64,000 nucleotides of DNA from Archangium lipolyticum (GTDB lineage: Bacteria > Myxococcota > Myxococcia > Myxococcales > Myxococcaceae), in NCBI RefSeq assembly GCF_024623785.1, contig NZ_JANKBZ010000022.1, positions 124,001 to 188,000 of the forward strand. Reading direction: 5' to 3'. A model generated the notes under the pieces. It saw only the letters and a list, made by a program, of their open reading frames with translations. It ran no database searches and was not told where the DNA came from. The translations under genes were made by a program, and so were the position numbers. Shown here in pieces: positions 7,933 through 53,032 of this stretch; positions within the stretch are counted from its first letter, which is position 1, and every line of letters begins with the position of its first letter.

Positions 7933-8017
7933 CCGAGGGAATCCGGCGGGTACGAGAGGCGCGCGAGCGTGTCACAGGCCCTCCCGCGCGAGCAAGGGAA
8001 AGGGGCGCCGGAAGGCC

Positions 8018-10462
8018 TCATTCGCCGTGCCCGGAAGACGGCTCGGGCAACACGGTGAGAATGGGGCGCGCATTCGCCAGTGACGGAGCGAAGAGGGAGG
8101 GCTGCCCGGGATCGGCGAACACCGCCGCGAAGTCCTCGGGCGTCAGCGCGCGCACCAGACGGGCCGCGAACGTCTCGCGCAACAGCCGGACATAGTAGTC
8201 GACGTCGTAGTCCCTCGGATCGGCCACGGCTCCACCCTTGGAGTCCTCCCGCGAACCGAGCCGGGCGCTGCCATCGTCCCCGGCGTCCGGATCGGGCAGC
8301 AGCCCTGCCCTCCCCCGCACCGCGCGATAGACCCGGACCTGCTCGCCGGCGGCCCAGTGTGTTCGCCCGCTCGCCAGCACGGCCTCATAGGGCAGCTCGC
8401 GCCTGCGCTCGCGCACGGCGTGGTACTCCGACGGAGTCTTCTTCAGCCGGACATGTGCCGCCACGTCGAGCGTCGGGATGGCCCGCCGGCGCAACGCGGC
8501 CACCGTCGCGACATAGGCATCCTGAACGCCCGGAATGTCACCCGCGAGAAGGCAGCGCAGCGCCCGGCGCAGGAACTCCTCGCCGAAGGGCTCCGCCCGG
8601 CTGGAGCGGAACGCCACGCCACGCAGGATGAGCTCTCCCTCGTAGGACTGCAGCACGTAGTTCTTCGGCTCGTGCGAGAGCATCGCGGCGTAGCGTCCAT
8701 CGAACTCGAGGCGGACCCGGGAAGGCAGCAGCGCCGCGACCTCGGAGACCACCCGGCGCTCGTCGGCCTCGCGCCAGTCGTCCGGGACGGCGAAGTACAC
8801 GCCATCTGTGTCGGCCTCCAGCAACGTGACGCCCCGCCGGGCCAGCTCGCGGCACAGCAGCCCCAGCACCTCGCGCCCGCGCCGCGTCACCTCGTTGGCG
8901 GCGTGCACGTCCGCGAAGCGCGTGAGTCCCACCGCGCCGAGGTACCCGTACGCCGAGTTGACGACGATCTTCATCGCCGCGGAGAGCGCCTCGTTCGTGT
9001 GCCGCTCCGGTGACCCGGGTGCCGCGGAACGCGCCCGTGCCTTGGCCGCCAGCCGATGATCCACGAGCCGGTCCACCAGCGCGAGCAGCACGCCCAGCCG
9101 GTCCCGCCGAGGCCCGATCCGGTACTCGCGCATCAACGAGGGATACAGGCTCGCGACATCGGCCTTCACGACGTGCCGCGCCACCCCCGTGGCGAACAGA
9201 TGCAGCGCCGCCCCACTGTGCGACGTGCCATCCCCTTCTTCGTGAGCGGGCAGCGCGGCCCCAGATCGGACGTAGGCGCGCACGAGGAGCGGGTCGAGCA
9301 CGCCGGTGGCGGGACCCGCGTCGGCGAGGCGCTCGTAGCGACGCGGTGCCATGCGAGCGAGCGCGAAGGCCGCCCCGCCGAGAAGGCGCGCGAGGCCGGC
9401 GGCTTCCGTCACGTCGTCGCGAGCGTAGCGCCGCACGCGCTCGGGATCCTTTCGGTAGACCTCGTACACGCGGGCACCCGGAATGTGCTCACGCTCGGGA
9501 CCCGCGAGACCGAAGTGCCGCGCGACGGCCTTGAGCCCGTGGCCCGGCAGATCCCGGGCAGAGAAATCGTGCCGAAGCACTGCGTCCAGGGTGTCGATCA
9601 GCTCGCGGCCGGGAAGCGTGTACCGCATGCGGCGCATCGGGTCGGGGGTGCGCCCCATCGAGCCACCTCCGAGCGAGGCCCCTCGAGAGGCGGGGCGCTG
9701 CCGCAGCCCGGGCAGGCCGGCGCGCCCCAATGCGAGCGGCACGCGGAGCACCCGTGCACGGCGGGCAACGAACGGCAGGTCGAAGCCGTGCAGGTTGTGG
9801 TTCTCGATCACATCCGGATCGATGGCACGGACACGCGCGACCAGACGCTGGAGGAGCTCGGCCTCGGCGGCATCGCCATCGCCGTGCGCCTCGAGGACGT
9901 CGGTCCGGCCATCGGGCTCTCGGATGGCCACGAGGAAGATCCGGTCGCGGCCGGGATCGAGCCCGGTGGTCTCGAGGTCGAACTGCATGCGGCGCAGGTC
10001 GTCGAACCCGAGATCGCGAAAATACGTGCGCCCCGAGGCCATGAGGTACTGCTCCTCCGGGGGAAGCGAGAGCACCGCGCTCTCACCCAGCTCACGCACG
10101 TGCCCGAGCTGGCGGCCGAGTCGCCGTGCGGCACCCTGGAGCACGGCAGCGGCCAGGGCGCGCCCATCGTCCGCGCGGACCACGTAGCGAAGCGCACCGG
10201 GCCCCTCGAGCTCCTGGTAGGTCACACAGCGCGGCGCGGGCCCCTGGGACTCAGGCCGAAGCCTCTCCCCGAGGTGCGTCAGGTCGTCCAATGACGCGAG
10301 CAGCAACCAGGGGCGGAAGCGCACGTCCTCCCGCACGAGCGCGCCGGTCTCGGGGAGCCGCCGCCAGACGAACGCGCGGCCATCGGGCTCCGCCCACACC
10401 GAGACGATGCCCGGCGTGGGATCCCACCCCCAGAGCCATTCGTCCTCCATCAGGTGGGCCAT
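8018..10462 (-). CDS. Family B DNA polymerase with 3'-5' exonuclease
   Basis: About 814 residues, close to the size of E. coli Pol II (783). Exonuclease motifs are present: Exo I FDLETTGLD, Exo II NHNLHGFDLPF, Exo III YARDDV. Polymerase motifs are also intact: A, KADVASLYPSLM; B, KIVVNSAYGYLG; C, EADTDGVYF (Asp-Thr-Asp). All catalytic acidic residues are therefore present. The likely role is translesion or repair synthesis. The first ATG (10462) has no clear ribosome site and a second lies four codons later. The tetR gene ends 30 bp upstream on the same strand, so the two could be co-transcribed. Confidence 0.92.
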   Translation of the reverse strand: MAHLMEDEWLWGWDPTPGIVSVWAEPDGRAFVWRRLPETGALVREDVRFRPWLLLASLDDLTHLGERLRPESQGPAPRCVTYQELEGPGALRYVVRADDGRALAAAVLQGAARRLGRQLGHVRELGESAVLSLPPEEQYLMASGRTYFRDLGFDDLRRMQFDLETTGLDPGRDRIFLVAIREPDGRTDVLEAHGDGDAAEAELLQRLVARVRAIDPDVIENHNLHGFDLPFVARRARVLRVPLALGRAGLPGLRQRPASRGASLGGGSMGRTPDPMRRMRYTLPGRELIDTLDAVLRHDFSARDLPGHGLKAVARHFGLAGPEREHIPGARVYEVYRKDPERVRRYARDDVTEAAGLARLLGGAAFALARMAPRRYERLADAGPATGVLDPLLVRAYVRSGAALPAHEEGDGTSHSGAALHLFATGVARHVVKADVASLYPSLMREYRIGPRRDRLGVLLALVDRLVDHRLAAKARARSAAPGSPERHTNEALSAAMKIVVNSAYGYLGAVGLTRFADVHAANEVTRRGREVLGLLCRELARRGVTLLEADTDGVYFAVPDDWREADERRVVSEVAALLPSRVRLEFDGRYAAMLSHEPKNYVLQSYEGELILRGVAFRSSRAEPFGEEFLRRALRCLLAGDIPGVQDAYVATVAALRRRAIPTLDVAAHVRLKKTPSEYHAVRERRRELPYEAVLASGRTHWAAGEQVRVYRAVRGRAGLLPDPDAGDDGSARLGSREDSKGGAVADPRDYDVDYYVRLLRETFAARLVRALTPEDFAAVFADPGQPSLFAPSLANARPILTVLPEPSSGHGE

Positions 10463-42646: not shown

Positions 42647-45355
42647 TCACTGTCCGGTGACGATGCCGAGCCGCAGTTCGAGGTCGAACGATAGATCCGG
42701 CGAGGTCGCGCCTGTCTGCTTGACCACCACCGCGAGGGTATTCTCCCCCTGGACGAACACTCCGGCGGGGATGGAATCGGCGACGAGCTCGTTCTCCGTG
42801 CCGGCGCTCGCGTACCTGTCGTGGGCGAGGCCCTTGCCCACGTTCCGGGTGAACACCTGCGTGCCGTTGACGAACACCGCCACACCGTCGTCGAAGAGGA
42901 CACGCAGGCTGGCCTCGGTGACGGCGCCGTTCACGAGGATCTTCTTGCGGAAGTAGACGCTGGGCTGGGACACGGCGCCCCGGGTGAGCACCGTGGCCTC
43001 GTCGCCGTCGCCGTACCCGAGCTGGCCCGCGCCGGACTTCCACGCCGAGTCATCGAAGTCCGGCATGTTCCAGTGCATGCCCGGATCCACCCCGCTGTCC
43101 TCGTACTTCCACACGGACCGGAAGGAGATGGGAGTGCTCACCGTCTGCTGGCTGATGGTGAAGGGAGCGTTGCTCACGTCCGACAGCGCGGGCTCACCAG
43201 CGCGCGACACGCGCACCAGCGCCTGGGAGGTGCTCACCTGCGGCACCATCCACGCGTGCACGCCGGTGTTGGGCACGCCGGAGGCGATGGGCGTCCAGCT
43301 CACGCCATTGTCCGTGGAGAGCGCCAGGTCCACGCTCGCCATGGTGCCGGTGCTGGACCAGGTGATGGACGTGGAAGCGCCCGGCAGGAAGATCTCCCCT
43401 GCGTTGGGCGCGGTGAGCACCAGCGTGTCCGGCACCGGGCCCGAGAGCTGCTCCACCTCCAGCGAGAGCGCGAAGGTGAGATCATCCGAGTTGGCGGACA
43501 CCTGCTTCACGATCGCCGTCACCACGTTCTCCCCCACCCGGAACGGATTGGCTTCGAGCGGGAGCGGAACGCGCTCGTACGCGTTGGTCGTCGAACCGGA
43601 AGCCCAGACGGCGAAGCCCGTGCCGTTGCCCATGTTGCGGGAGAAGACGGGGACGCCGTTGATCCACACGGCGATGGCATCGTCGTACAGCACCTCGAGG
43701 TGGGCCGCGGTGACGATGTTCTCCAGGGTGATCTTCTTGCGGAAGTAGACGGTGGGAATGCCAGAGGAGATGACGGTGCCCTCGTCCTCGTCTCCGTAGC
43801 CGAGCTGACCCGAGCCGGTCTTCCACGCGGAGTCATCGAAGTCCCGGTCCAGCCAGGCGGTGCCCTGATCGATGCCCCGGTCGTCATACTTCCACGTGTC
43901 GCCGAGGACGATCTTCTTCCGCGCGGTGGGCGTCACCTGGGCCACCCGCACCATGCGCGCCACCGAGGGCACCCCCTGCCCGTCCACGATGAAGAGCATG
44001 TAGTAGCCCGGGGGCGCGGTGAGGTTGCTCGCGGGCGCGGTCACGCTCAGGCCACCGTTCGTCTGGGAGAAGGCCAGCTTGAGGAAGCGCTGGTTCTGAT
44101 CGAAGGCATGCGTCACCGAGCCGAGGGCGAGCAGCGTCACCTTCGCCACCCGCGACGCATCCAGGGTCTGCACGAGGAAGCTCGTCCCGGGAGTGATGAC
44201 GGCCGGCGCCTCCTGGATGGCGGGTCGGGTGCCATCCTGCTCGAGATACGGCGGCGAGAAGATCTCCACCGTGCGCAGGTTGCGGCCACCGCCGGTCAGC
44301 ACGCGCCCGTCCGGCAACAGGAGCGCCGCCGAGTGATAGCCCCGGTAGTCCGCCGCGGGGGCGAGCTTCGTCCAGGTGTTGGTGTCGGGATCGTAGAGCT
44401 CCGGCACCTTGACGGGCAGGGTCTCGTCATCGAAATCCGAGCCGCTGCTGCCGCCCGACACCAGCACCTTGCCATCCGGCAGCAGGGTGGCGTTGAGCTG
44501 GCGCCTCGGCCAGGCCATCGGGGCGCGGGCCCGCCAGACTGGCGCCGGCGCCGCGAGATCGATCTCCTCCACGGTGGCGGTGGGCGGCGAGCCCCCTCCA
44601 ATGAGGAGCACCTTGGAGTCGATCATCACCGCCGAGCCATAGGCGCGGCCGTTGTATGCGCTCCGGGGGCCCTCGAACCAGGTGCCGGTCCCCTCCGTGT
44701 CCAACCAGCGGGAGGTACGCTGGGGGCCGGAGTAGAAGATCTTGCCGTTGGGTGCCAGGAACACCCGCGGGTAGTAGGGCACATCGCGCACGGCGGTCGT
44801 GAGGTCGCGGAACGTGCCCGTGCTGGACTGCCACACCTGTGGCAGCTCGTTGCAGGTGCCGGACGCGTGGGTTTCGCCCGAGAGCACCACCACGTCTCCG
44901 TTGGGGAGCGTGGTGTTGGTGGGGTACCACCGGTTATCATTCATGTCCGGGCCGCGGCTCCACGTGAGCGTGAAGGGATTGAAGATGCTCACGTAGGGGT
45001 AGCCCACGTGGGACTCCTCGTGGCCGCCCGTCACCAGCAGCCGCCCGTCCGGCAGGAAGGAGTGACCCGCGCAGAAGATGTTGTAGTCCGCCCGTGGCAG
45101 GGCCGAGAGCGCTCCCGTGGCCGGGTCCCACAATTGAGGTGGTAGCAGGCCCTCGTCGAACTCGCCGAAGAACATCACCTGCCCCGTGGGCAGCAGGTGG
45201 GCGTGGGTCATGGACACGGGAAAGGTCGTCAGCGGAGACCACTCCCCCGCGACTTTTGGATCCGCCGCTTCCACCGCCAACGGGACCAGGGACAACAGCA
45301 GGCCCGCGAACAGCAGGCACCTTCTCCAGCTCTCAAAGCATGACCGCACCATCAT
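42647..45355 (-). CDS. fbfB: Secreted copper-radical (galactose/glyoxal) oxidase, FbfB-like
   Basis: 902 residues with a signal peptide (to about residue 31). The Kelch-type propeller carries the galactose/glyoxal oxidase site: Cys95 (IFCAGHS) and Tyr144 (NRWYPT) as the thioether pair, Tyr340-His341 (YRGYHS) and His416 (VTHAFDQ). The DUF1929 Ig-like domain follows. Residues 486-634 and 747-897 are two copies of a galactose-binding-like module (W-K-Y-x-D, DFDDSAWKxGxGQLGYGD, VYFRKK) with a third Ig-like domain between them. FbfB of Stigmatella aurantiaca, needed for fruiting bodies, is a galactose-oxidase homologue of about 58 kDa; this protein is longer by the added modules. Divergent from fbfA. 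Confidence 0.88.
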   Translation of the reverse strand: MMVRSCFESWRRCLLFAGLLLSLVPLAVEAADPKVAGEWSPLTTFPVSMTHAHLLPTGQVMFFGEFDEGLLPPQLWDPATGALSALPRADYNIFCAGHSFLPDGRLLVTGGHEESHVGYPYVSIFNPFTLTWSRGPDMNDNRWYPTNTTLPNGDVVVLSGETHASGTCNELPQVWQSSTGTFRDLTTAVRDVPYYPRVFLAPNGKIFYSGPQRTSRWLDTEGTGTWFEGPRSAYNGRAYGSAVMIDSKVLLIGGGSPPTATVEEIDLAAPAPVWRARAPMAWPRRQLNATLLPDGKVLVSGGSSGSDFDDETLPVKVPELYDPDTNTWTKLAPAADYRGYHSAALLLPDGRVLTGGGRNLRTVEIFSPPYLEQDGTRPAIQEAPAVITPGTSFLVQTLDASRVAKVTLLALGSVTHAFDQNQRFLKLAFSQTNGGLSVTAPASNLTAPPGYYMLFIVDGQGVPSVARMVRVAQVTPTARKKIVLGDTWKYDDRGIDQGTAWLDRDFDDSAWKTGSGQLGYGDEDEGTVISSGIPTVYFRKKITLENIVTAAHLEVLYDDAIAVWINGVPVFSRNMGNGTGFAVWASGSTTNAYERVPLPLEANPFRVGENVVTAIVKQVSANSDDLTFALSLEVEQLSGPVPDTLVLTAPNAGEIFLPGASTSITWSSTGTMASVDLALSTDNGVSWTPIASGVPNTGVHAWMVPQVSTSQALVRVSRAGEPALSDVSNAPFTISQQTVSTPISFRSVWKYEDSGVDPGMHWNMPDFDDSAWKSGAGQLGYGDGDEATVLTRGAVSQPSVYFRKKILVNGAVTEASLRVLFDDGVAVFVNGTQVFTRNVGKGLAHDRYASAGTENELVADSIPAGVFVQGENTLAVVVKQTGATSPDLSFDLELRLGIVTGQ
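42665..43117 (-). repeat. fbfB C-terminal module, copy 2
   Basis: Encodes residues 747-897 of the oxidase. It matches the upstream module at 43454-43900 in the shared phrases DFDDSAWK, GQLGYGD and VYFRKKI. This is an internal gene duplication. Confidence 0.7.
43454..43900 (-). repeat. fbfB C-terminal module, copy 1
   Basis: Encodes residues 486-634 of the oxidase, the first copy of the duplicated galactose-binding-like module. It is separated from copy 2 by an Ig-like spacer of about 110 residues. Confidence 0.7.
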
Positions 45356-45449
45356 TCTTCCCCCTCCCCGACGACGCCCATCTGTTGCTGGCGGCTGAAC
45401 CTAGGGCCCACGCGAGCGCGAACAAGGCGAGCCCGGGTCGTGTCGGTGT

Positions 45450-45557
45450 GATGACGAAAGGACAACGAGTGTCATCGAGGTGACCGACCACCCGACATCG
45501 GGGGCGGAAGCGCAGTCGGTGAAGGGCACTCCCCATACCCCCCGGGGCAGTTGTCCT
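45450..45557. promoter_or_regulatory. Divergent fbfB/fbfA control region
   Basis: The 367-bp gap (45356-45722) contains two inverted-repeat signals: GATGAC...GTCATC (45450-45476, 15-base spacer) and a matching heptamer pair AGGACAA (45459-45465) and TTGTCCT (45551-45557). They could be shared sites for a developmental regulator. No complete promoter was recognised on either strand. Confidence 0.35.
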
Positions 45558-45722
45558 GGGATTGGCACGGTCCGAGTTTCACGCCGCCCCGAAGAACCGT
45601 GAGGAGTGGGCGCGGTGGGTCGGGGGACGAGGGGGGCGGCAGGGCGAGGCAGGGCCAGGAGCGAGCGTCCGAAGTGTGTGGAGCGAGGGCGCCACGGGCT
45701 CGGTCGAGCCACCGGGAGGGAC

Positions 45723-46994
45723 ATGGAACTCTTCCCCATTCACCTGTTGGTATTGGTGGTGATGATGAACCGGTACGTGCTCGGTCCGCTGCTGCGGCGG
45801 ATCCGGGGCCGCCGGGTGGACGCCACGAATGACGGCTATCAGCCAACCGTCACGGTGGTCATTCCCCTCTTCAACGAGGGCGAGGGCATCCATCACGCCG
45901 TCCGGAGCCTGCTGGAACAGGACTACCCGGCGGACAAGCTGAGCATCTGCGTGGTGGACGACTGCTCCACCGACGACAGCCATGCCTGGGCGCTGCGCGC
46001 GGCCGAGGGGCATCCGAACGTGAAGGTGATGCGCAACCCGTACAACATGGGCAAGCGCAAGGGCATCGCCCGGGCGGTGCGTGAGGCGACGGCGGAGCTC
46101 ATCGTCTCGGTGGACTCGGACGTGGTGGTGCACCCGAGCGCCGTGCGCGAGCTGGTGCGGCGCTTCGTGAGCCCGCGCATCGCCGCGGTGGGAGGCCGCA
46201 CCTACGTGGCCAACCGTCATCAGAACTGGATGACGCGGATGATCGAGATCAAGTTCTACTTCGCCCAGGAGTGGCTCAAGGATCTGGAGCGGAGCTTCCG
46301 CTCGGTGCTGTGCCTGTCCGGGTGCCTCACCGCGTACCGGCGCCACGTGCTGCTGGAGCTGGAGCCCATCCTCGAGACGCGCAACATCGCCGGGGTCCCC
46401 ATCAAATACGGAGAGGATCGTTTCCTCACGCGGCAGATCGTCAAGGCGGGCTACGAGACGGTCTACACCACGGCGGCCTGGTGCCAGACGGCCGCGCCGG
46501 CCACGCTGGCGGGCTACTTCTCGCAGCAGCTGCGGTGGCGGCGCTCCAACCTCGTGGACATGATCTGCGGGCTGAGCCACGCCTGGAGGCTGCATCCGGT
46601 GGTGTGCATCCACTACGTGTCCCAGCTGGCGCTGCTGCTCTCCTATCCCGTCATCATCATCCACAACCTGATCAACGGGCAGTTCTGGGGCGTGCTGCTG
46701 CTGCACATGCTCGTCATGGGAGCCATGGGGCTCATCTACCGGATCGACAAGAGGGACCTGCCCGCGGACATGCGCGTCCCGGCGATCTCCTTCCTTCCCA
46801 TGGGGCTGCTGATGCCCATCACCTACGCACTCTTCACTCCGCTGGCGCTGCTCACGCTGGACTCGGGGAGCTGGGAGACGCGGGGCAAGCCGAGCACGGC
46901 GCCTGGCGTACCGCCCGCGGACGTACCGCCCGCCGAGCGGGCTCCCAGCATCATCCCCCCCACGCGGACGGCCGGAGGGAGCACGACGCCATGA
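45723..46994 (+). CDS. fbfA: Processive family-2 glycosyltransferase, FbfA/NodC-like
   Basis: 423 residues. The four motifs of hyaluronan/chitin/cellulose-type synthases are present: VVDDCSTDDS, VSVDSDVVV, KYGEDRFLTRQ and QQLRWRRSN. One N-terminal and about four C-terminal membrane helices (SQLALLLSYPVIIIHNLI, GVLLLHMLVMGAMGLIY, FLPMGLLMPITYALFTPLALL) would form the pore. The start was chosen for GGGAGGGAC before the ATG. FbfA of Stigmatella aurantiaca, about 45 kDa, is a NodC/chitin-synthase homologue needed for fruiting; size and context agree. First gene of a four-gene operon, next to the oxidase as in Streptomyces cslA-glxA. Confidence 0.9.
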   Translation: MELFPIHLLVLVVMMNRYVLGPLLRRIRGRRVDATNDGYQPTVTVVIPLFNEGEGIHHAVRSLLEQDYPADKLSICVVDDCSTDDSHAWALRAAEGHPNVKVMRNPYNMGKRKGIARAVREATAELIVSVDSDVVVHPSAVRELVRRFVSPRIAAVGGRTYVANRHQNWMTRMIEIKFYFAQEWLKDLERSFRSVLCLSGCLTAYRRHVLLELEPILETRNIAGVPIKYGEDRFLTRQIVKAGYETVYTTAAWCQTAAPATLAGYFSQQLRWRRSNLVDMICGLSHAWRLHPVVCIHYVSQLALLLSYPVIIIHNLINGQFWGVLLLHMLVMGAMGLIYRIDKRDLPADMRVPAISFLPMGLLMPITYALFTPLALLTLDSGSWETRGKPSTAPGVPPADVPPAERAPSIIPPTRTAGGSTTP

Positions 46995-48076
46995 ACCAGC
47001 GCATCGTCAACAAGCTCAACACCCTCGCGGTCAACGCCTACAAGGCCCTGGGCTCGGTGTTGCTGGCCCTCATCCTGGTGGGGCTCGTCTCGTACCTGGG
47101 GATGCAGGCCTTCTTCTTCGTGGGCCATGCCTGGCTGACACCCACGGTGGTGTCGCCGACGGATCCGCAGATCCTCCAGCTCAACGCCCAGCTGGCGCAG
47201 CAGGCGGCGGCGCGGGACAAGCTGCTCGCGGACCGGCGGGACATGGAGGCACGGCTGGAGCAGGCCGAGCGGCTGCTCGGCTCGGAGAAGGACTTCCAGG
47301 AGCGCTTCCGGCTGGCGCTGAGCAGTGAGCGGGAGGCCCGGGCGAAGTCGCTGCGGCGGCTGGCGGTGCTGCGCCAGGAGTACCGGGAGGCGGCCGAGGA
47401 GATCGCCAAGTCCAACCGGGCCTACGCGGGGATGGCGCGCACGCGCACCGAAGCGCTCTACAACGCGCGGATGCTGGAGCGGGAGGAGCGGCTCACCGCG
47501 AACCACCAGCTGGCGCAGATGGCGCAGACGAACCTGTCGCTGTCGGAGGGCTCGGCGGAGTTGCAGACGAAGCTGGAGGCGCTGAAGCGGGAGCTGGACG
47601 GCTTCGACGCCTCGATGGCGGGCAGGTCCGCGGGCCTCACCACGGAGGTGCTGCTGCTGGAGCGGGAGTACACGCGCTCGGTGCTGGAGGTGGCGCGGGC
47701 GGAGAGCGAGCGGCGCCACCTGAAGGAGAGCCTGCACTCACTGGATGAGGCGGTGGCGCGCTACGACGCGCTGCTGGCGTCCATCCGGAGCTCGCCATGG
47801 CTGGAGGCCATCGAGCGGGGGCTGACGGTGGGCTTCGTGCCGTACGAGAACCTGGGGAACGCGAGGGCGGGCATGCCGCTCTACCGGTGCGCGCTGAAGC
47901 TGCTGTGGTGCCGGGAGGTGGGCATGGTGGGCCAGCCGCTGCAGGGTGAGGTGACGGTGAAGCACCCGGTACGCCAGACGCTGCTGCGGGGCGTGATGGT
48001 GGAGCTGGAGCTGCGGGACGAGCGCTGGGCGCGCGAGGAACTGCTGCACCTGGGGCGGCCGCCGCTGCTGCTGTAG
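46991..48076 (+). CDS. Membrane-anchored coiled-coil protein, HlyD-like adaptor
   Basis: 361 residues. One membrane helix (SVLLALILVGLVSYLGMQAFFFV, about 22-44), then a coiled coil of about 200 residues rich in Ala/Glu/Arg/Leu (with LRRLAVLRQEYREAAEEIA and similar), and a small C-terminal beta domain (YENLGNARAGMPLYRC, QPLQGEVTVKHPVRQTLLRGVMVELELRD). This is the plan of a periplasmic adaptor that links an inner-membrane synthase to an outer-membrane exit. Two Cys (YRCALKLLWC) could form a disulfide. ATGA overlap with fbfA. Confidence 0.8.
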   Translation: MNQRIVNKLNTLAVNAYKALGSVLLALILVGLVSYLGMQAFFFVGHAWLTPTVVSPTDPQILQLNAQLAQQAAARDKLLADRRDMEARLEQAERLLGSEKDFQERFRLALSSEREARAKSLRRLAVLRQEYREAAEEIAKSNRAYAGMARTRTEALYNARMLEREERLTANHQLAQMAQTNLSLSEGSAELQTKLEALKRELDGFDASMAGRSAGLTTEVLLLEREYTRSVLEVARAESERRHLKESLHSLDEAVARYDALLASIRSSPWLEAIERGLTVGFVPYENLGNARAGMPLYRCALKLLWCREVGMVGQPLQGEVTVKHPVRQTLLRGVMVELELRDERWAREELLHLGRPPLLL

Positions 48077-48100
48077 CGCGGGAGCCTGGAAGGAGACGCT

Positions 48101-49204
48101 ATGCGGTGGGCGGTTGCATGGGGCGTACTGGCGGGCCTGGGCGCTGGGACCGCGGAGGCCCAGGAGCCGGCGGAAGAGGCACGCGAGCCGGGCTACTGCG
48201 CCTTCGTGCGCGGGGTGGGCGACGCGGAGTCGGCGGTGCTGCTGGCACCGGACGTGTTCGCGAACGTGGGCGTGGTGAACGCGGGCGAGGCCGGCGGGGG
48301 TGGAGGCGTGCCACTGGGCGGCCCCACGCCGAGAGTCACGGCGGGCCTGGACTATGACTTCGTGGGGCTGTACCGGGGCCTGGGGATCCGCCGCCGGGCG
48401 GAGGCGGAGTGCGAGCGCTACCGGGCGCTCTCGGCGCTGCGAGCGGCCGTGAAGAGGGGCCCGGACGTGGGCGCGGAAACGGCGCTGGCCGCACGAGCCC
48501 AGGTGCTGGAGGCCATCCTCCCCGAGGCCGAGCAGCTCCTGACGTCCCTGGGAGAGGACGTGAAGGAGGGCCGGGCCACGGTGGAGGAGCTCAACGCGCT
48601 GCGGTTGCGGATGGACGCCCTGAGGGCGCTGGCGCACGAGACGGCGAGGGAGCGGGAGCGGCTGGCCGCCCTGCCCCGCCCGGCCGAGCGTCCGTTGTCC
48701 GCGTACCTGGGGGAGATGAGGGCGGCGGATGCTCGGGTGGAAGAGGAGTCCGCGGGCCTGAGACGCGCGTCGGCGTGGACGGTGCGGCTGCGAGGCGGGT
48801 ACGACGAGCTGATCGACGTGAGGCAGGACGTGCCACTCTTCGGGATGTTGACGGTCTCGTACAACCTGGGGAGCCTGTGGCAGCCGTCGGCGAACGCGAA
48901 GGCGCGCGAGGGCCGCCGGCGGTGGCTCGAGGAGGACGTCGAGGGGGTGAGCCAGGAGGTGGCCCGGCTGCTGCGCGAGCTGAGGGCGGCACACGGGACG
49001 GAGGAGACGCGGCTGCGCGAGGTGTCGGTACTGGTCTCGGACCTGGAGGGGCAGTTGAGGGAGCTCCAGGCGATGGAGACGGCGAAGGTGCGCCGTTACC
49101 GCGACTACCTGGTGCTGGAGCTGGCGCGGCTGAGGGCGGAGCAGGCCTGGCTGAAGGCGCACGTGGCGGAGCTGGGCCGGTTCCTGGGAGAAGAGCGGCC
49201 GTGA
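48101..49204 (+). CDS. Periplasmic/outer-membrane coiled-coil protein
   Basis: 367 residues. Signal peptide to AEA-QE (about residue 20). A Gly-rich stretch (GEAGGGGGVPLGG) near 85-100 is followed by DYDFVGLYRGL and long helices (LRAAVKRGP..., LRLRMDALRALAHETARERERLAAL, VAELGRFLGEER). VPLFGMLTVSYNLGSLWQ in the middle is like the beta segments between helical pairs in TolC-type outer-membrane proteins. I read it as a divergent outer-membrane export partner; it lacks a clear family match. It starts 24 bp after the adaptor gene. Confidence 0.7.
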   Translation: MRWAVAWGVLAGLGAGTAEAQEPAEEAREPGYCAFVRGVGDAESAVLLAPDVFANVGVVNAGEAGGGGGVPLGGPTPRVTAGLDYDFVGLYRGLGIRRRAEAECERYRALSALRAAVKRGPDVGAETALAARAQVLEAILPEAEQLLTSLGEDVKEGRATVEELNALRLRMDALRALAHETARERERLAALPRPAERPLSAYLGEMRAADARVEEESAGLRRASAWTVRLRGGYDELIDVRQDVPLFGMLTVSYNLGSLWQPSANAKAREGRRRWLEEDVEGVSQEVARLLRELRAAHGTEETRLREVSVLVSDLEGQLRELQAMETAKVRRYRDYLVLELARLRAEQAWLKAHVAELGRFLGEERP

Positions 49205-49902
49205 TCGTCCGGCCGGTCCTGGTGGCCTCGCTGCTGGGACTGCTCGCGCCTCCCGCGTCTTCTGGCAGGGGCATGAAGACGGATGACACGCTCCCCATGG
49301 TGCAGCCGAAGCGGATGAAGGTGACCCAAGGGAAGCTGGAGCCACTTCCGGATGGGCGCCTGGTCATCGACTCGCCCAAGGTCCGGGCGGTGGTTCCCTC
49401 CAGGGAGGAACCGAAGACACGAGCCCTGATGGCATCAACGAGGGCGCCGGAGGAAGCCCGGGTAGCGGAGCTGCGCTTCACCTACCTGGGGGCGACACGA
49501 GAGCAGGAGCCCTTGCAATCGGGGGAGCTGCGGCGGCAGGTGGGGCTGAAGCTGCGGGCGCGGGACGGCTGCAACGTCGTCTACGTGATGTGGCGCATCG
49601 AGCCGAAGGCGGGGCTGGTGGTGTCGGTGAAGCACAATCCTGGGATGCGCCGCTCGGACGACTGCGGCAACAGCGGCTACCAGACGGTGAAACCACGGAG
49701 CAAGGCACCGGTACCAAGGCTCGAGCCAGGAGACGACCACACCCTGAGAGCGGAGCTCGAGGGTACGGCCCTGACGGTGCGAGTCGACGGCAAGCCCGTG
49801 TGGGAAGGGACGCTCCCCGAGGAAGTGCTCACGTTCGACGGGCCGGTGGGTCTGCGAAGCGACAACGGTCGTTTCCAGGTGGAGCTACGAGTCCACCCAT
49901 GA
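49201..49902 (+). CDS. Secreted ConA-like/DUF1080-type glycan-binding protein
   Basis: 233 residues from GTG, which overlaps the previous stop as GTGA. Signal peptide IVRPVLVASLLGLLAPPASS. The C-terminal part has the beta-sandwich run KLRARDGCNVVYVMWRIEPK, HTLRAELEGTALTVRVDGKPVWEGTLP, GPVGLRSDNGRFQVELRVHP, as in 3-keto-disaccharide-hydrolase/laminin-G-like domains. It most likely binds the polymer made by the operon. Last gene; a strong hairpin follows. Confidence 0.75.
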   Translation: MIVRPVLVASLLGLLAPPASSGRGMKTDDTLPMVQPKRMKVTQGKLEPLPDGRLVIDSPKVRAVVPSREEPKTRALMASTRAPEEARVAELRFTYLGATREQEPLQSGELRRQVGLKLRARDGCNVVYVMWRIEPKAGLVVSVKHNPGMRRSDDCGNSGYQTVKPRSKAPVPRLEPGDDHTLRAELEGTALTVRVDGKPVWEGTLPEEVLTFDGPVGLRSDNGRFQVELRVHP

Positions 49903-49941: not shown

Positions 49942-51546
49942 TCACACCGAAGGCCGCTGTTCAGGCACGGCGACTGGCTTGTCCTCCTCCTTGCCCGAGG
50001 AGGGCTCGGCCTGGATGGAGCAACCATTCGCGGAGCAGACCCCGCCGTCGCGCAGATCGAAGCGCCAGCGATGACGGGGGCACACGAGGTAGCGGCCCTC
50101 CTCGATCCAGCCTTCCTGGAGATCGGCGCCCTGGTGGGGGCAGAAGCGGTTGACGGAGTAGCGCTGCCCGCCGGCGGAGACGAGGGTGCGCTCCTTGCGA
50201 GACTCGGTGTCCAGCGTACCGTCGCACATGGTGCGCAGGTCCTCGATCTCGGCGGCGAGGAAGTTGTGCAGGGTGGCGTCGTAGATGTCGGGTTGGCGCG
50301 AGGCGCGGAAGCGGAAGGACAGCAGGAAGTCCTCCCAGTTCAGTTTGCGATCCAGGACGCGGACGATGTCGGCCGCGCTCGCGATGAGGGTGTACCGGCT
50401 CAGGTCGCGCACCTCGCCGACGACGTCCACGCGGCGGGTGCGGAAATCCACGCGGATGAGCTGTCCGGGGAGCTCGAGGAGGCCGAGGTAGAGGGGCATC
50501 ATCACGCGCTCCGCCAGGGAGAAGACATCCAGCTTGTGCTGCAACTCCTCGCGAAGCCGCAGGTGGATGCGATCCACCTCCTCCAACATCATGTTGCGGC
50601 GGCGCTCGCGGAAGACGCGCGTCTGGAGGGCCGCGTACGAGCGCAGGTACTGTGAGACGTTCTCGTCGGTGACGCGCTCGGGAGCGAGGGACACCATCTC
50701 CGCGAGCTCCACATCGAGCACGTCACCGGGCATGGGCTCGAAGAGGCGTGGAGTCTTCCCGGCGAGGCGATGGTGGAGGAAGGAGAAGAGCTCCGAGGCG
50801 CGCGGGAAGATGTTCACCGGCTCCAGGTTGATGTGGAAGAGGGACGGATCCAGGAAGCAGGCCGGACCCGCCGAGGCCAGGTAGGCGCGAGGCTGGACGA
50901 TCTCGATGGCACGCGCCACCGCCTCGAACTTGCTGGCGCGTTTCTGCCGCGAGTGCTCGGCGTACTCCTCACGCGAGTAGTCGTAGCAGGTGGGGTGCCA
51001 GATGGCGCCGGAGAACTGGGCGGTGAAGACATCGATGGGCCCCTCCTCCGCCACGATGCGCTGCAGCCGGTCATGGACCTTGCAATCGTTGAGGTTGAGG
51101 AAGCTCCGCCCCCGCTCCTGGACGAGCAGCGCCGAGTCGCGGTTGGTGCCCGAGTCGGTCAGATAGAGCTTCAGGTAGCCCCCCTTGAAGGGCACCTCCT
51201 GCTGGTCCTCGCAGGTGAGGATCCGCCTGGCCCCGTAGGCCTCGAACGCGTCGCGGAGCGCGGTGCGGCGGAAGCGGCCGATGACGACGGTGAAGTCGCG
51301 CTTCGTGAGGGTGCGCAGGAAGTCGGGATCGTAGTGATCCTTGTGCTCGTGGCTGATGTAGAGGAAGCGCTCCTTCGTCGAGAGCTCCAGCTTCTCGCGC
51401 ACGAAGGGAGCCAGCTGGTGGTTGCGTGGGAATTGCATCCAGGCCGAGTCGAACGCCCCTTGAGGGGAGAGCCACGGATCGGCGACCACCAGGGCGTGTT
51501 GGGTTTCGATCAGGAAGCCGGCATGCCCGAGGAACGTGATCTGCAT
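49942..51546 (-). CDS. Metallo-beta-lactamase-fold / Rieske fusion protein
   Basis: 534 residues. The N-terminal half is a UlaG-like metallo-beta-lactamase domain (ITFLGHAGFLIET, YISHEHKDHYDPDFL with the H-x-H-x-D-H motif, IWHPTCYDYS). The last 100 residues form a Rieske domain with Cys-x-His (FCPHQGADL) and Cys-x2-His (VCPRHRWRFD). This order occurs in CMP-N-acetylneuraminate hydroxylase-type proteins. The substrate may be a sugar nucleotide or another acid, but this is inference. The start at MQITFLGHAG is standard for the domain. Confidence 0.87.
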   Translation of the reverse strand: MQITFLGHAGFLIETQHALVVADPWLSPQGAFDSAWMQFPRNHQLAPFVREKLELSTKERFLYISHEHKDHYDPDFLRTLTKRDFTVVIGRFRRTALRDAFEAYGARRILTCEDQQEVPFKGGYLKLYLTDSGTNRDSALLVQERGRSFLNLNDCKVHDRLQRIVAEEGPIDVFTAQFSGAIWHPTCYDYSREEYAEHSRQKRASKFEAVARAIEIVQPRAYLASAGPACFLDPSLFHINLEPVNIFPRASELFSFLHHRLAGKTPRLFEPMPGDVLDVELAEMVSLAPERVTDENVSQYLRSYAALQTRVFRERRRNMMLEEVDRIHLRLREELQHKLDVFSLAERVMMPLYLGLLELPGQLIRVDFRTRRVDVVGEVRDLSRYTLIASAADIVRVLDRKLNWEDFLLSFRFRASRQPDIYDATLHNFLAAEIEDLRTMCDGTLDTESRKERTLVSAGGQRYSVNRFCPHQGADLQEGWIEEGRYLVCPRHRWRFDLRDGGVCSANGCSIQAEPSSGKEEDKPVAVPEQRPSV

Positions 51547-51794
51547 GAGAAGATTCCCCCCGCGAGATCCGGGTCCGTCGGAGGCACGGCCCGGAATGGC
51601 GCCACCCGGACGTACGAATACGTTCAGTGGCGCCGGAAGGCTGGTGTGGCGCGGGAAATGAGGCCATGGGCCCCGGGTGCGAGCCCAGGGTCCAACACCG
51701 TGCAGACCTCTCGCATCCCCCCTGAAAAAGGAGGGAGGAGGCTGGAAATCCTCACCTCCCACCCATCATCGCAGGTAGGGCATGGCGACCCGAC

Positions 51795-52811
51795 TCATTC
51801 CGTGATTTCACGGACGCTGAGCCACTTGAAGTCCACGTCCGTGGCGCTGTCCCAGCGGAAGGTGGCGATGGGACCACCCCAGGTGATGGGCATGGCCGGT
51901 ACGGAGCCACCGCAGTGGTCCGCGTCTCCGCCCCACGAACCGTCATCCAGTTTCTCGTAGACCTTCTTCCACGTCAGCTTGTCGGCAGTGTCGTTGAGCC
52001 AGAGCTCGAGCCGCACCGCGGGCTTGCCGTTGGCGGTGGTGTTGCGCATGACGGACTTGAAGCCCACCCAGCGGCCCTTGAGAGACCCGGTGGCCGCCTT
52101 GTAGGGCACGTTGTCGTAGCTCACGTGCCAGGTCTCCTTCTCCCAGCGGACGCGGCCGTCGTAGTGCAGGCCGCCCTTGTAGGAGGAGCCCTCGCAGGCG
52201 ATCGAGTCGGTGTGGCGGCCACCGCGGGCGTACCAGGCGAAGTTGTCACCGTTGTTGCCGGTGGCGTTCACCTTCACGAAGCCCGTCATCTCCACGTTCT
52301 TCCAGTCGTTGGGCGACTGCATGTAGCCGCGGCCCGCGAGGACATCCCGATCGTAGGTGGGGATCTTCCTCGAGTCGTAGCCGGTGGAGGTGAACACCTC
52401 CATGCGAACCTTGGTGCTCCGCATCTTCCAGGAGCCATCCGCGTTACGCGTGATGGTCTGCTGCGGATCGAAGCGCGCGTCACGCAGTGCATCGCTCGCG
52501 AGCATCCAGGACTCACCGCCCGGCTTCGTCGGGTAGAGCATGGTGACGCCGAACACGTCCTTGTCCTGCGCGGGAGCTGGGGCGGACTCGAGCGAGGGCC
52601 GCGCCTCCGAAGTGGGCCGCGGCGCCGGCACGGGAGAGGAAGCCGGAGTGGGCTCGGGCGTTGGAGCGGTCGCGTCCGGAGGGGAAGCGGGAGTCCCAGC
52701 CGATGGTTCGATCGCCAGGTCCTGTGCATCACAGCCGGCGAGCGAGAACAGGAGGAAGGGAGCGCAGAGGGCGGAAAGGAGTCGGAGTCGGATCAACGAG
52801 GCAAGCTCCAT
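51795..52811 (-). CDS. Lipoprotein with polysaccharide-lyase-like beta domain
   Basis: 338 residues. The start was set so that the signal peptide ends in a lipobox (FSLAGC, Cys27). A Pro/Thr/Ser/Ala-rich linker of about 60 residues follows, then a beta-rich domain (FGVTMLYPTKPGGESWML, MEVFTSTGYDSRKIPT, GDNFAWYARGGRHT, LKGRWVGFKSVM, VRLELWLNDT). That pattern recalls jelly-roll polysaccharide lyases, but no catalytic set is confirmed. It is likely an outer-membrane carbohydrate-binding or -cleaving protein. An earlier in-frame ATG at 52886 would place residues before the signal peptide. Confidence 0.7.
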   Translation of the reverse strand: MELASLIRLRLLSALCAPFLLFSLAGCDAQDLAIEPSAGTPASPPDATAPTPEPTPASSPVPAPRPTSEARPSLESAPAPAQDKDVFGVTMLYPTKPGGESWMLASDALRDARFDPQQTITRNADGSWKMRSTKVRMEVFTSTGYDSRKIPTYDRDVLAGRGYMQSPNDWKNVEMTGFVKVNATGNNGDNFAWYARGGRHTDSIACEGSSYKGGLHYDGRVRWEKETWHVSYDNVPYKAATGSLKGRWVGFKSVMRNTTANGKPAVRLELWLNDTADKLTWKKVYEKLDDGSWGGDADHCGGSVPAMPITWGGPIATFRWDSATDVDFKWLSVREITE

Positions 52812-53032
52812 CTGAGAGAGAAGGCCGGTGGACATTCGGAGTCCCACGGCGACAGACCCTCTGAACAGAAGGAGACAGTTCCTCATCCCCGCCCGGGGGT
52901 ATGACTCCTCGAATCCGCCCGCCCGAGCGTCAGGCGCGGGAGACGAGCGCCCGCCCGACTTCGGTTTTTCCGAAGGGACGCATCTCGATTACCTATTTGC
53001 CTAAGTATCGGCGGGCTCTTAATTCAGGGAGC

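Follow-up and report, generated by a model that had tools for sequence, protein, structure and literature searches.

A putative operon for the synthesis and trans-envelope export of a polysaccharide in Archangium lipolyticum and other Myxococcota

Introduction

How does the product of an FbfA-type polysaccharide synthase cross the two membranes of a Gram-negative cell, and which of the genes that surround the synthase gene take part? The question is raised by five neighbouring genes of Archangium lipolyticum, here called A to E, that occupy positions 42647-49902 of a stretch of 64,000 nucleotides (contig NZ_JANKBZ010000022.1, positions 124,001 to 188,000 of the forward strand; assembly GCF_024623785.1, 12.6 Mb), to which we refer as the window. 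A encodes a copper-radical oxidase and is divergent from B, the FbfA-like synthase gene, which is followed by C, D and E. We consider it rather probable that B, C, D and E together form a machine that makes a polysaccharide and exports it across the whole envelope, with D as the TolC-like outer-membrane component and C as an adaptor-like protein, and we find the oxidase to be an optional addition.

The gene fbfA was reportedly described in 1996 as required for fruiting in Stigmatella. In Stigmatella aurantiaca the oxidase gene fbfB (STAUR_4011) adjoins a divergently transcribed glycosyltransferase gene, as far as the available part of the source tells (PMC3543389), an arrangement like that of A and B. 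An initial annotation, made from the letters of the window, had combined such precedents into a model in which the five genes make, export and oxidise one polymer. Our literature search, whose coverage omitted most subscription papers, yielded no account of the fbfA product or its export route, no role for the downstream genes C, D and E, no Myxococcus role for the operon and no further synthase-adaptor-TolC system.

A conserved four-gene operon

B (45723-46994, forward strand, 423 amino acids), C (46991-48076, forward, 361 amino acids), D (48101-49204, forward, 367 amino acids) and E (49201-49902, forward, 233 amino acids, GTG start) form a tight operon, with 4-base overlaps at B/C (ATGA) and D/E (GTGA) and a spacing of 24 bases between C and D. 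On the other side of a divergent intergenic region of 367 bases (45356-45722) lies A (42647-45355, reverse strand, 902 amino acids). The list of open reading frames (ORFs) had opened B at 45606; we place its start at 45723, where a conserved MELFP begins. With that correction the five genes lie where the initial annotation had put them, and its description of an oxidase divergent from a NodC-like processive glycosyltransferase that heads an operon is borne out, the latter as to family. Since the ratio of nonsynonymous to synonymous substitution rates is 0.16-0.45 for each of A to E in pairwise comparisons with loci L002 and L046, we regard all five as real genes. The nearest named loci for C, at 87% identity, are those of Archangium violaceum (L002) and A. 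lansinium (L003).

We surveyed 195 Myxococcota genomes. C and D each have matches in 62 of them, strong ones in 60, and E is found in 60 (E-value ≤ 1e-3); the strong sets of C, D and E are one identical set of 60 genomes. B, at an E-value ≤ 1e-90, occurs in 60 of the 195 genomes and in 59 of the 60 that carry C, D and E, and the contig of the sixtieth (G089) breaks off 76 bases after C. All 57 loci that can be read whole are collinear in the order B-C-D-E on a single strand; this count leaves out G077 and G081, in which B sits on a separate contig, and G089. Because the collinearity extends to 57 of 57 loci we take the grouping to be more than chance, and the four genes are one conserved unit. 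The weak matches to C in G037 (1.1e-4) and to D in G015 (5.1e-4) were discounted as chance coiled-coil matches, a second weak match to C in G130 (7.7e-4) was left out, and G066 (C 5.2e-13, D 4.7e-8) was treated separately as a distant pair. In one draft genome (locus L059, G030:C422, 2221-3280) D appears in two frames, through a frameshift or a misassembly.

A few loci depart from this pattern and count against the reading of the four genes as one export machine. G110 has B (L067, G110:C639 4437-5681) with no C, D or E. In L004 and L005 a short C lies behind a glycosyltransferase about 50% identical to B, and matches to D, E and A are absent from the 16.8 kb covered; in L006, which likewise carries a short C, the stretch contains no match to B, D or E. 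The short C proteins of these three loci (at about 7947-8780) have 271-272 amino acids and the same C-terminal domain as C. The initial annotation had held that its model would fall if other fbfA loci lacked the downstream genes, and for the most part they do not: C, D and E are present in 59 of the 60 genomes with B, G110 being the contrary case, to which the more distant L004 and L005 may be added. The co-occurrence it had proposed to look for is there as far as B to E are concerned.

D, a TolC-like and probable outer-membrane protein

We read D as TolC-like, that is, as a short member of the outer-membrane-factor (OMF) fold class, because four lines of evidence agree: a fold search, a profile comparison measured against shuffled controls, weak Pfam matches and a signature at the predicted tip. 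In a Foldseek search with the structural model of D, ranks 1-41 are all OMF chains by title, and VIA aligned D with OprM (Z 12.9, root-mean-square deviation 9.4, 275 residues aligned) and with TolC (Z 10.1, deviation 9.2, 263 aligned). Independently of the model, the D profile scored 33.8 against 13 OMFs of the same genome, with 154 columns in register, compared with 23.3 for the best of 60 column shuffles, 23.5 for the reversed profile and 18.7 for C; the OMF set came from 15 ORFs, of which an RND (resistance-nodulation-division) pump and a kinase were removed. The Pfam family OEP matches the window's D below threshold (E-value 0.0043, 17.3 bits against a gathering score of 22) and 9 of 15 D members at an E-value ≤ 0.1, the best at 3.7e-5. 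Residues 157-168 of D resemble OMF tips (GxATxEELNAxQ), a pattern kept in 14 of 15 rows and closely matched in the fifteenth; the profile comparison aligns these residues with the OMF tips, the signature (of the type G.AT..E.L..A) having been derived from the genome's own OMFs and not from a curated motif. With 367 amino acids D is shorter than the TolC-type chains among the Foldseek matches, mostly 400-490.

The assignment has its weak sides. The model, built from three near-identical sequences, is of low confidence (mean predicted local distance difference test, pLDDT, 65.7), and its strand regions 46-90 and 223-268, which in an outer-membrane trimer would belong to the 12-strand barrel, fall below 50. 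In Foldseek only rank 1 has an E-value < 0.001, and the template-modelling (TM) scores are 0.25-0.41; in VIA the first unrelated row reaches Z 9.6, and VIA itself warns that with helical proteins a Z below about 13 may carry little meaning, which covers every value obtained for D. The profile match to the OMFs has a probability of 16.6%. Searching the PDB by sequence with the D profile led nowhere, and a scan of the viral_contigs set returned no relatives of D. The initial annotation had seen in D a periplasmic or outer-membrane coiled-coil protein; Foldseek, profile and tip signature support an OMF fold.

C, an adaptor-like coiled-coil protein

The model of C, built from six sequences (mean pLDDT 79.7, predicted TM-score 0.50), consists of a transmembrane helix (residues 2-44), a long coiled-coil hairpin (59-160 and 164-266, each arm some 100 residues long) and a small beta domain (280-354) with strands at 280-284, 296-301, 306-324, 331-341 and 352-354, a helix at 285-290 and pLDDT of about 60-75. 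It has both the inner-membrane anchor and the alpha-helical hairpin of a periplasmic adaptor of the HlyD/EmrA type; such adaptors also have a beta-barrel domain with one helix, to which the beta domain of C may correspond. The first Foldseek match is EmrA (E-value 5.3e-4), and chains of EmrAB-TolC stand at ranks 4 and 6 amongst generic coiled coils. Conservation within the hairpin is comparatively high around its turn, residues 150-175 (6 of 182 windows reach that level), and two cysteines of the beta domain, Cys300 and Cys307, are unchanged in each of 20 rows. By eye the canonical RLS tip motif is not seen in the C alignment; it is also missing from adaptors such as CvaA, according to the portion of the source at hand (PMC4446572).

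Much else argues against counting C among the adaptors. By definition these carry a lipoyl domain flanking the hairpin, in the available portion of that source (PMC4446572). The model of C lacks this barrel-sandwich hybrid domain, and only some 14 residues on each side lie between the hairpin and the transmembrane helix or beta domain. The TM-score of the EmrA match is only 0.14, and VIA gave coiled coils only among the 50 rows listed, which speaks against the likeness without excluding it. Neither Pfam nor NCBIfam has a family for the window's C, an adaptor Pfam family is found in none of 20 C members and none of 16 C beta domains, and the profiles of C and of its beta domain gave no significant adaptor homology against PDB and Pfam. 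When the beta domain was compared by hhalign with 22 adaptor ORFs of the same genome singly, the best probability was 38%, the next 4.9% and the rest at most 1.2%; against the barrels of these adaptors, which a pattern located in 17 of the 22, it aligned in the expected register at a probability of 1.9%, equalled by 1 of 100 shuffles.

Because the sequence evidence is weak and no lipoyl domain is predicted, C is not assigned to the adaptor family and is only likened to adaptors in its working: going by the model, it has an adaptor-like build and probably functions like a periplasmic adaptor. The earlier description of C as a membrane-anchored coiled-coil adaptor stands in respect of anchor and hairpin, and not in respect of a lipoyl domain or sequence homology. 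The initial annotation had also put its model at risk should the predicted structures prove unrelated to export adaptors; D has the OMF fold and C an adaptor-like build, with the reservation that the TM-score to EmrA is low. In the window's own genome HlyD_3 matches form four pairs, the two members of each lying about 0.6-0.9 kb from one another (G000:C37:36835-38016, C2:107695-108778, C6:76846-77987 and C23:91417-92540); where read, they are adjacent adaptor genes.

C and D paired with a second synthase

In G066 (L063, G066:C1123 3-6006) relatives of C and D occur together in another setting, a row of five same-direction genes that overlap at three of four joints and are 83 bases apart at the fourth. 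They encode a nucleotide-sugar dehydrogenase (TIGR03026, above cut-off; next the Vi-antigen uridine diphosphate-N-acetylglucosamine dehydrogenase TviB, below cut-off), the D relative (hhalign, 98.4%), the C relative (5.2e-13), a divergent family 2 glycosyltransferase (GT2) and a polysaccharide deacetylase. The sole family match of the GT2 is a partial one to PgaC/IcaA, the synthase of poly-N-acetylglucosamine (PNAG), at 3.6e-7; QRVRW was seen by eye, and no Pfam glycosyltransferase match and no PDB match was obtained. The D relative has no OEP match, a point against the export reading. The G066 row sat in one search profile, and that match is not counted as evidence. Since G066 keeps the C-D pair with a different synthase, a dehydrogenase and a deacetylase, the pair appears tied to polysaccharide, and this pairing, from one genome, is the strongest reason that suggests a glycan exporter.

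The same pairing bears on a different reading of C and D, to which we give a small probability: that C is a scaffold or co-polymerase which sets chain length, that D has some other outer-membrane task and that the exit of the polymer is encoded elsewhere. C has no detectable adaptor homology and no lipoyl domain, D is missing beside the short C of L004 and L005, and 26 OEP matches point to further OMF genes in the genome of the window, all of which would suit such an arrangement; the OMF fold and tip signature of D, its presence in all 60 genomes with a strong C and the recurrence of the pair beside another synthase in G066 favour, instead, an export role for C and D.

The synthase and its likely polymer

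B is probably a processive GT2 polysaccharide synthase, of a kind resembling FbfA, NodC and chitin synthase. Its best NCBIfam model is TIGR04242, NodC, a chitooligosaccharide synthase (2.1e-54; 185 bits, below the cut-off of 550), and its best PDB match is hyaluronan synthase 1 (8e-20). The motifs DxD, GED and QxxRW are kept in 61 of 61 copies and VVDD in 60 of 61, so that B has every element of the processive GT2 pattern (D, DxD, ED, QxxRW). PilZ is not among the six Pfam families listed for B at an E-value ≤ 1.

The affinity to NodC opens the possibility that B makes a short chito-oligosaccharide-like signal, exported by C and D, in place of a matrix polymer. NodT is the OMF of Nod-factor export, which would lend the idea a parallel; NodC systems use an ABC (ATP-binding cassette) transporter, and family scans detect none among the operon products. 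As B also matches hyaluronan synthase, and as the C-D pair of G066 accompanies a GT2 whose only family match is a PNAG synthase, we hold a signal of this kind to be improbable and keep to a polysaccharide.

This polymer probably contains N-acetylhexosamine, a weak inference from neighbouring genes: the last gene of the G066 operon encodes a polysaccharide deacetylase, and in G157 a de-N-acetylase gene is found downstream of the operon. In G157 (L061, G157:C248 1860-3730) a WbqC-like gene and the de-N-acetylase gene, of PIG-L type, lie after E on the same strand. B is present twice in G061 (L066, G061:C1 6017-13776); the copies share 94.7% identity along 1425 bases and enclose an MbnP-like gene and genes for two lyases, one chondroitinase-B-like and the other heparinase II/III-like. 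The neighbours in G157, G066 and G061 are suggestive and are not proof of the type of polymer.

An optional copper-radical oxidase

A reads as a secreted copper-radical oxidase of the galactose/glyoxal oxidase kind, similar to FbfB and GlxA. It matches the Pfam families GO-like_E_set (9.2e-26), Glyoxal_oxid_N and Kelch, and the GlxA model NF052501 at 2e-70, with 237.8 bits, below the cut-off of 800; by eye its N-terminal residues look like a cleavable signal peptide. Alignment to galactose oxidase places Cys95, Tyr144, Tyr340, His341 and His416, which we take to be the copper-ligand and Tyr-Cys residues from their roles in that enzyme. The residue set of a copper-radical oxidase (auxiliary activity family AA5) is thus present in A, and the five are kept in all 19 operon-adjacent copies. 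The tail of A (window 42647-43920, reverse strand) consists of two similar C-terminal domains of about 160 residues each that match each other; the number of tail domains matched varies among the adjacent copies of other genomes.

A is divergent beside B in 18 of the 57 whole loci, with matched starts 271-456 bases apart; G139, where A shares a contig with the beginning of the B gene, brings the adjacent cases to 19 of 60 genomes. G161, from a distant family, is among them, and G096 carries all of A, B, C, D and E. At an E-value ≤ 1e-40, with four candidates scored per genome, A has relatives in 45 of 195 genomes. Of these, 36 belong to the 60 with B to E and 9 to the other 135, and in four of the nine the match is confined to the tail domains; the remaining 24 of the 60 have no such relative. 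G110, the genome with B alone, has several relatives of A elsewhere. On a B+C+D tree (57 rows, a quick method, long branches flagged) the adjacency of A takes 4 changes, where shuffling gives a mean of 16. Repeated loss of A seems likelier than repeated gain, because position and orientation agree even in G161, the change count itself being unable to separate the two.

Oxidase A is accordingly an optional addition to the operon. That the five genes are one obligatory machine, as the initial annotation had it, is very unlikely: the constant place and orientation of A, its fully kept ligand residues and the standing of fbfB as a fruiting gene in Stigmatella, in the part of the report available (PMC3543389), speak for it, and 41 of 60 genomes with B to E have no adjacent A, 24 have no relative at the threshold used and the adjacency needs four changes on the tree, so that we reject A as an obligatory part. 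Of the proposal that the locus makes, exports and oxidises one polymer, the export half is supported; since A is adjacent in 19 of 60 genomes and has no relative in 24, 'make, export and oxidise' is not general. A may also assist synthesis rather than oxidise an exported polymer, because Streptomyces GlxA is, as far as the available text goes, a membrane-anchored partner of CslA (PMC11022532).

E and the flanking genes

E appears to be an exported accessory protein, perhaps glycan-binding, judging from its co-occurrence with the other genes and from an N-terminus that reads by eye as a signal peptide. Neither Pfam nor NCBIfam has a family for the window's E. The initial annotation had called it ConA-like; the E profile retrieved three PDB rows at E-values of 0.42-0.75, a laminin-G-type domain of neurexin among them, and Laminin_G_2 matched 1 of 16 E members at 0.032, and for lack of support we rejected the ConA-like fold.

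The gene order common around the loci is thioesterase, phosphopantetheinyl transferase, A where present, B-C-D-E, a metallo-beta-lactamase (MBL)/Rieske protein and a lipoprotein; among 64 loci the flanking clusters hold 35, 37, 31 and 28 genes. In the window the MBL/Rieske protein (49942-51762, reverse strand) and the lipoprotein, which has no family match (51795-52886, reverse strand), lie downstream of the operon, and relatives of both stand beside many of the loci.

Proposed mechanism and relation to known systems

On the reading that we prefer, of B, C, D and E as a trans-envelope synthesis and export machine, B would polymerise a nucleoside diphosphate-sugar at the cytoplasmic face and extrude the chain through its own membrane channel, as its family and motifs suggest. 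C, anchored beside B in the inner membrane, would span the periplasm by its long coiled-coil hairpin and, going by its build, meet D with the hairpin tip and keep its beta domain near B. D, a short TolC-type protein whose fold class is indicated by model and profile and which is presumably a trimer, would provide the outer-membrane exit, so that the polymer would probably be handed directly out through both membranes. E may be an exported accessory, perhaps polymer-binding, and in some lineages the divergent A might oxidise primary alcohols of the polymer or assist the synthase; for both we can offer a guess. What the data show are the gene content, its conservation and collinearity, the fold class of D and the retention of catalytic residues; the assembly of the conduit, the direction of export, the type of polymer and the roles of E and A are what we infer. 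Of the synthase-dependent polysaccharide machine first envisaged, the export half is supported and the union with the oxidase only in part.

In tripartite systems the energised inner-membrane transporters are of the ABC, RND or MFS (major facilitator superfamily) type, in the excerpt available (PMC8277102). The likeness of our operon to TolC tripartite efflux and type 1 secretion lies in an inner-membrane-anchored hairpin adaptor and a TolC-type channel (available parts of PMC8277102 and PMC4446572); where those systems have an ABC, RND or MFS pump in the inner membrane, this one has a glycosyltransferase, and their adaptors have a lipoyl domain (PMC4446572, in part), which the model of C lacks. 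In the proposed scheme, the synthase would replace the pump of the classical TolC systems. A bolder version, which we put forward tentatively and as a possibility somewhat less probable than not, is that the synthase itself drives a tripartite conduit of TolC type from the inner membrane, through an adaptor of a new, lipoyl-less and long-armed class, and that C and D are a portable glycan-export cassette which accompanies two or more very different synthases, B here and another GT2 in G066.

Among known systems the nearest is the cyanobacterial XcsA-XcsB-TolC model, itself unproven, in which an inner-membrane synthase, an adaptor-like protein and a TolC-type channel are proposed as a tripartite conduit for cellulose (PMC12430437). 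In the parts of that source at hand the model is described as not being one operon and as lacking experimental validation, XcsA has a PilZ domain and XcsC is an endoglucanase (PMC12430437). The two systems share the combination of synthase, adaptor-like protein and TolC-type channel; they differ in that the three genes are here in one operon, in that B has no PilZ match whereas XcsA has the domain, and in that C has no lipoyl domain. The Streptomyces CslA-GlxA complex, which makes cellulose in vitro with GlxA as a transmembrane-anchored partner (PMC11022532, available portion), is similar in that a GT2 synthase gene adjoins a copper-radical oxidase gene, and dissimilar in being a two-protein complex of a Gram-positive organism with an anchored oxidase, where A reads as secreted, is divergent and is missing beside the operon in most genomes.

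For an FbfA-type product the operon gives a complete, gene-linked candidate export route that can be tested gene by gene. Here the genes for synthase, adaptor-like protein and channel are genetically linked, as they are not in the cyanobacterial XcsAB-TolC proposal, and the lineages with and without A are a natural experiment on what the oxidase contributes.

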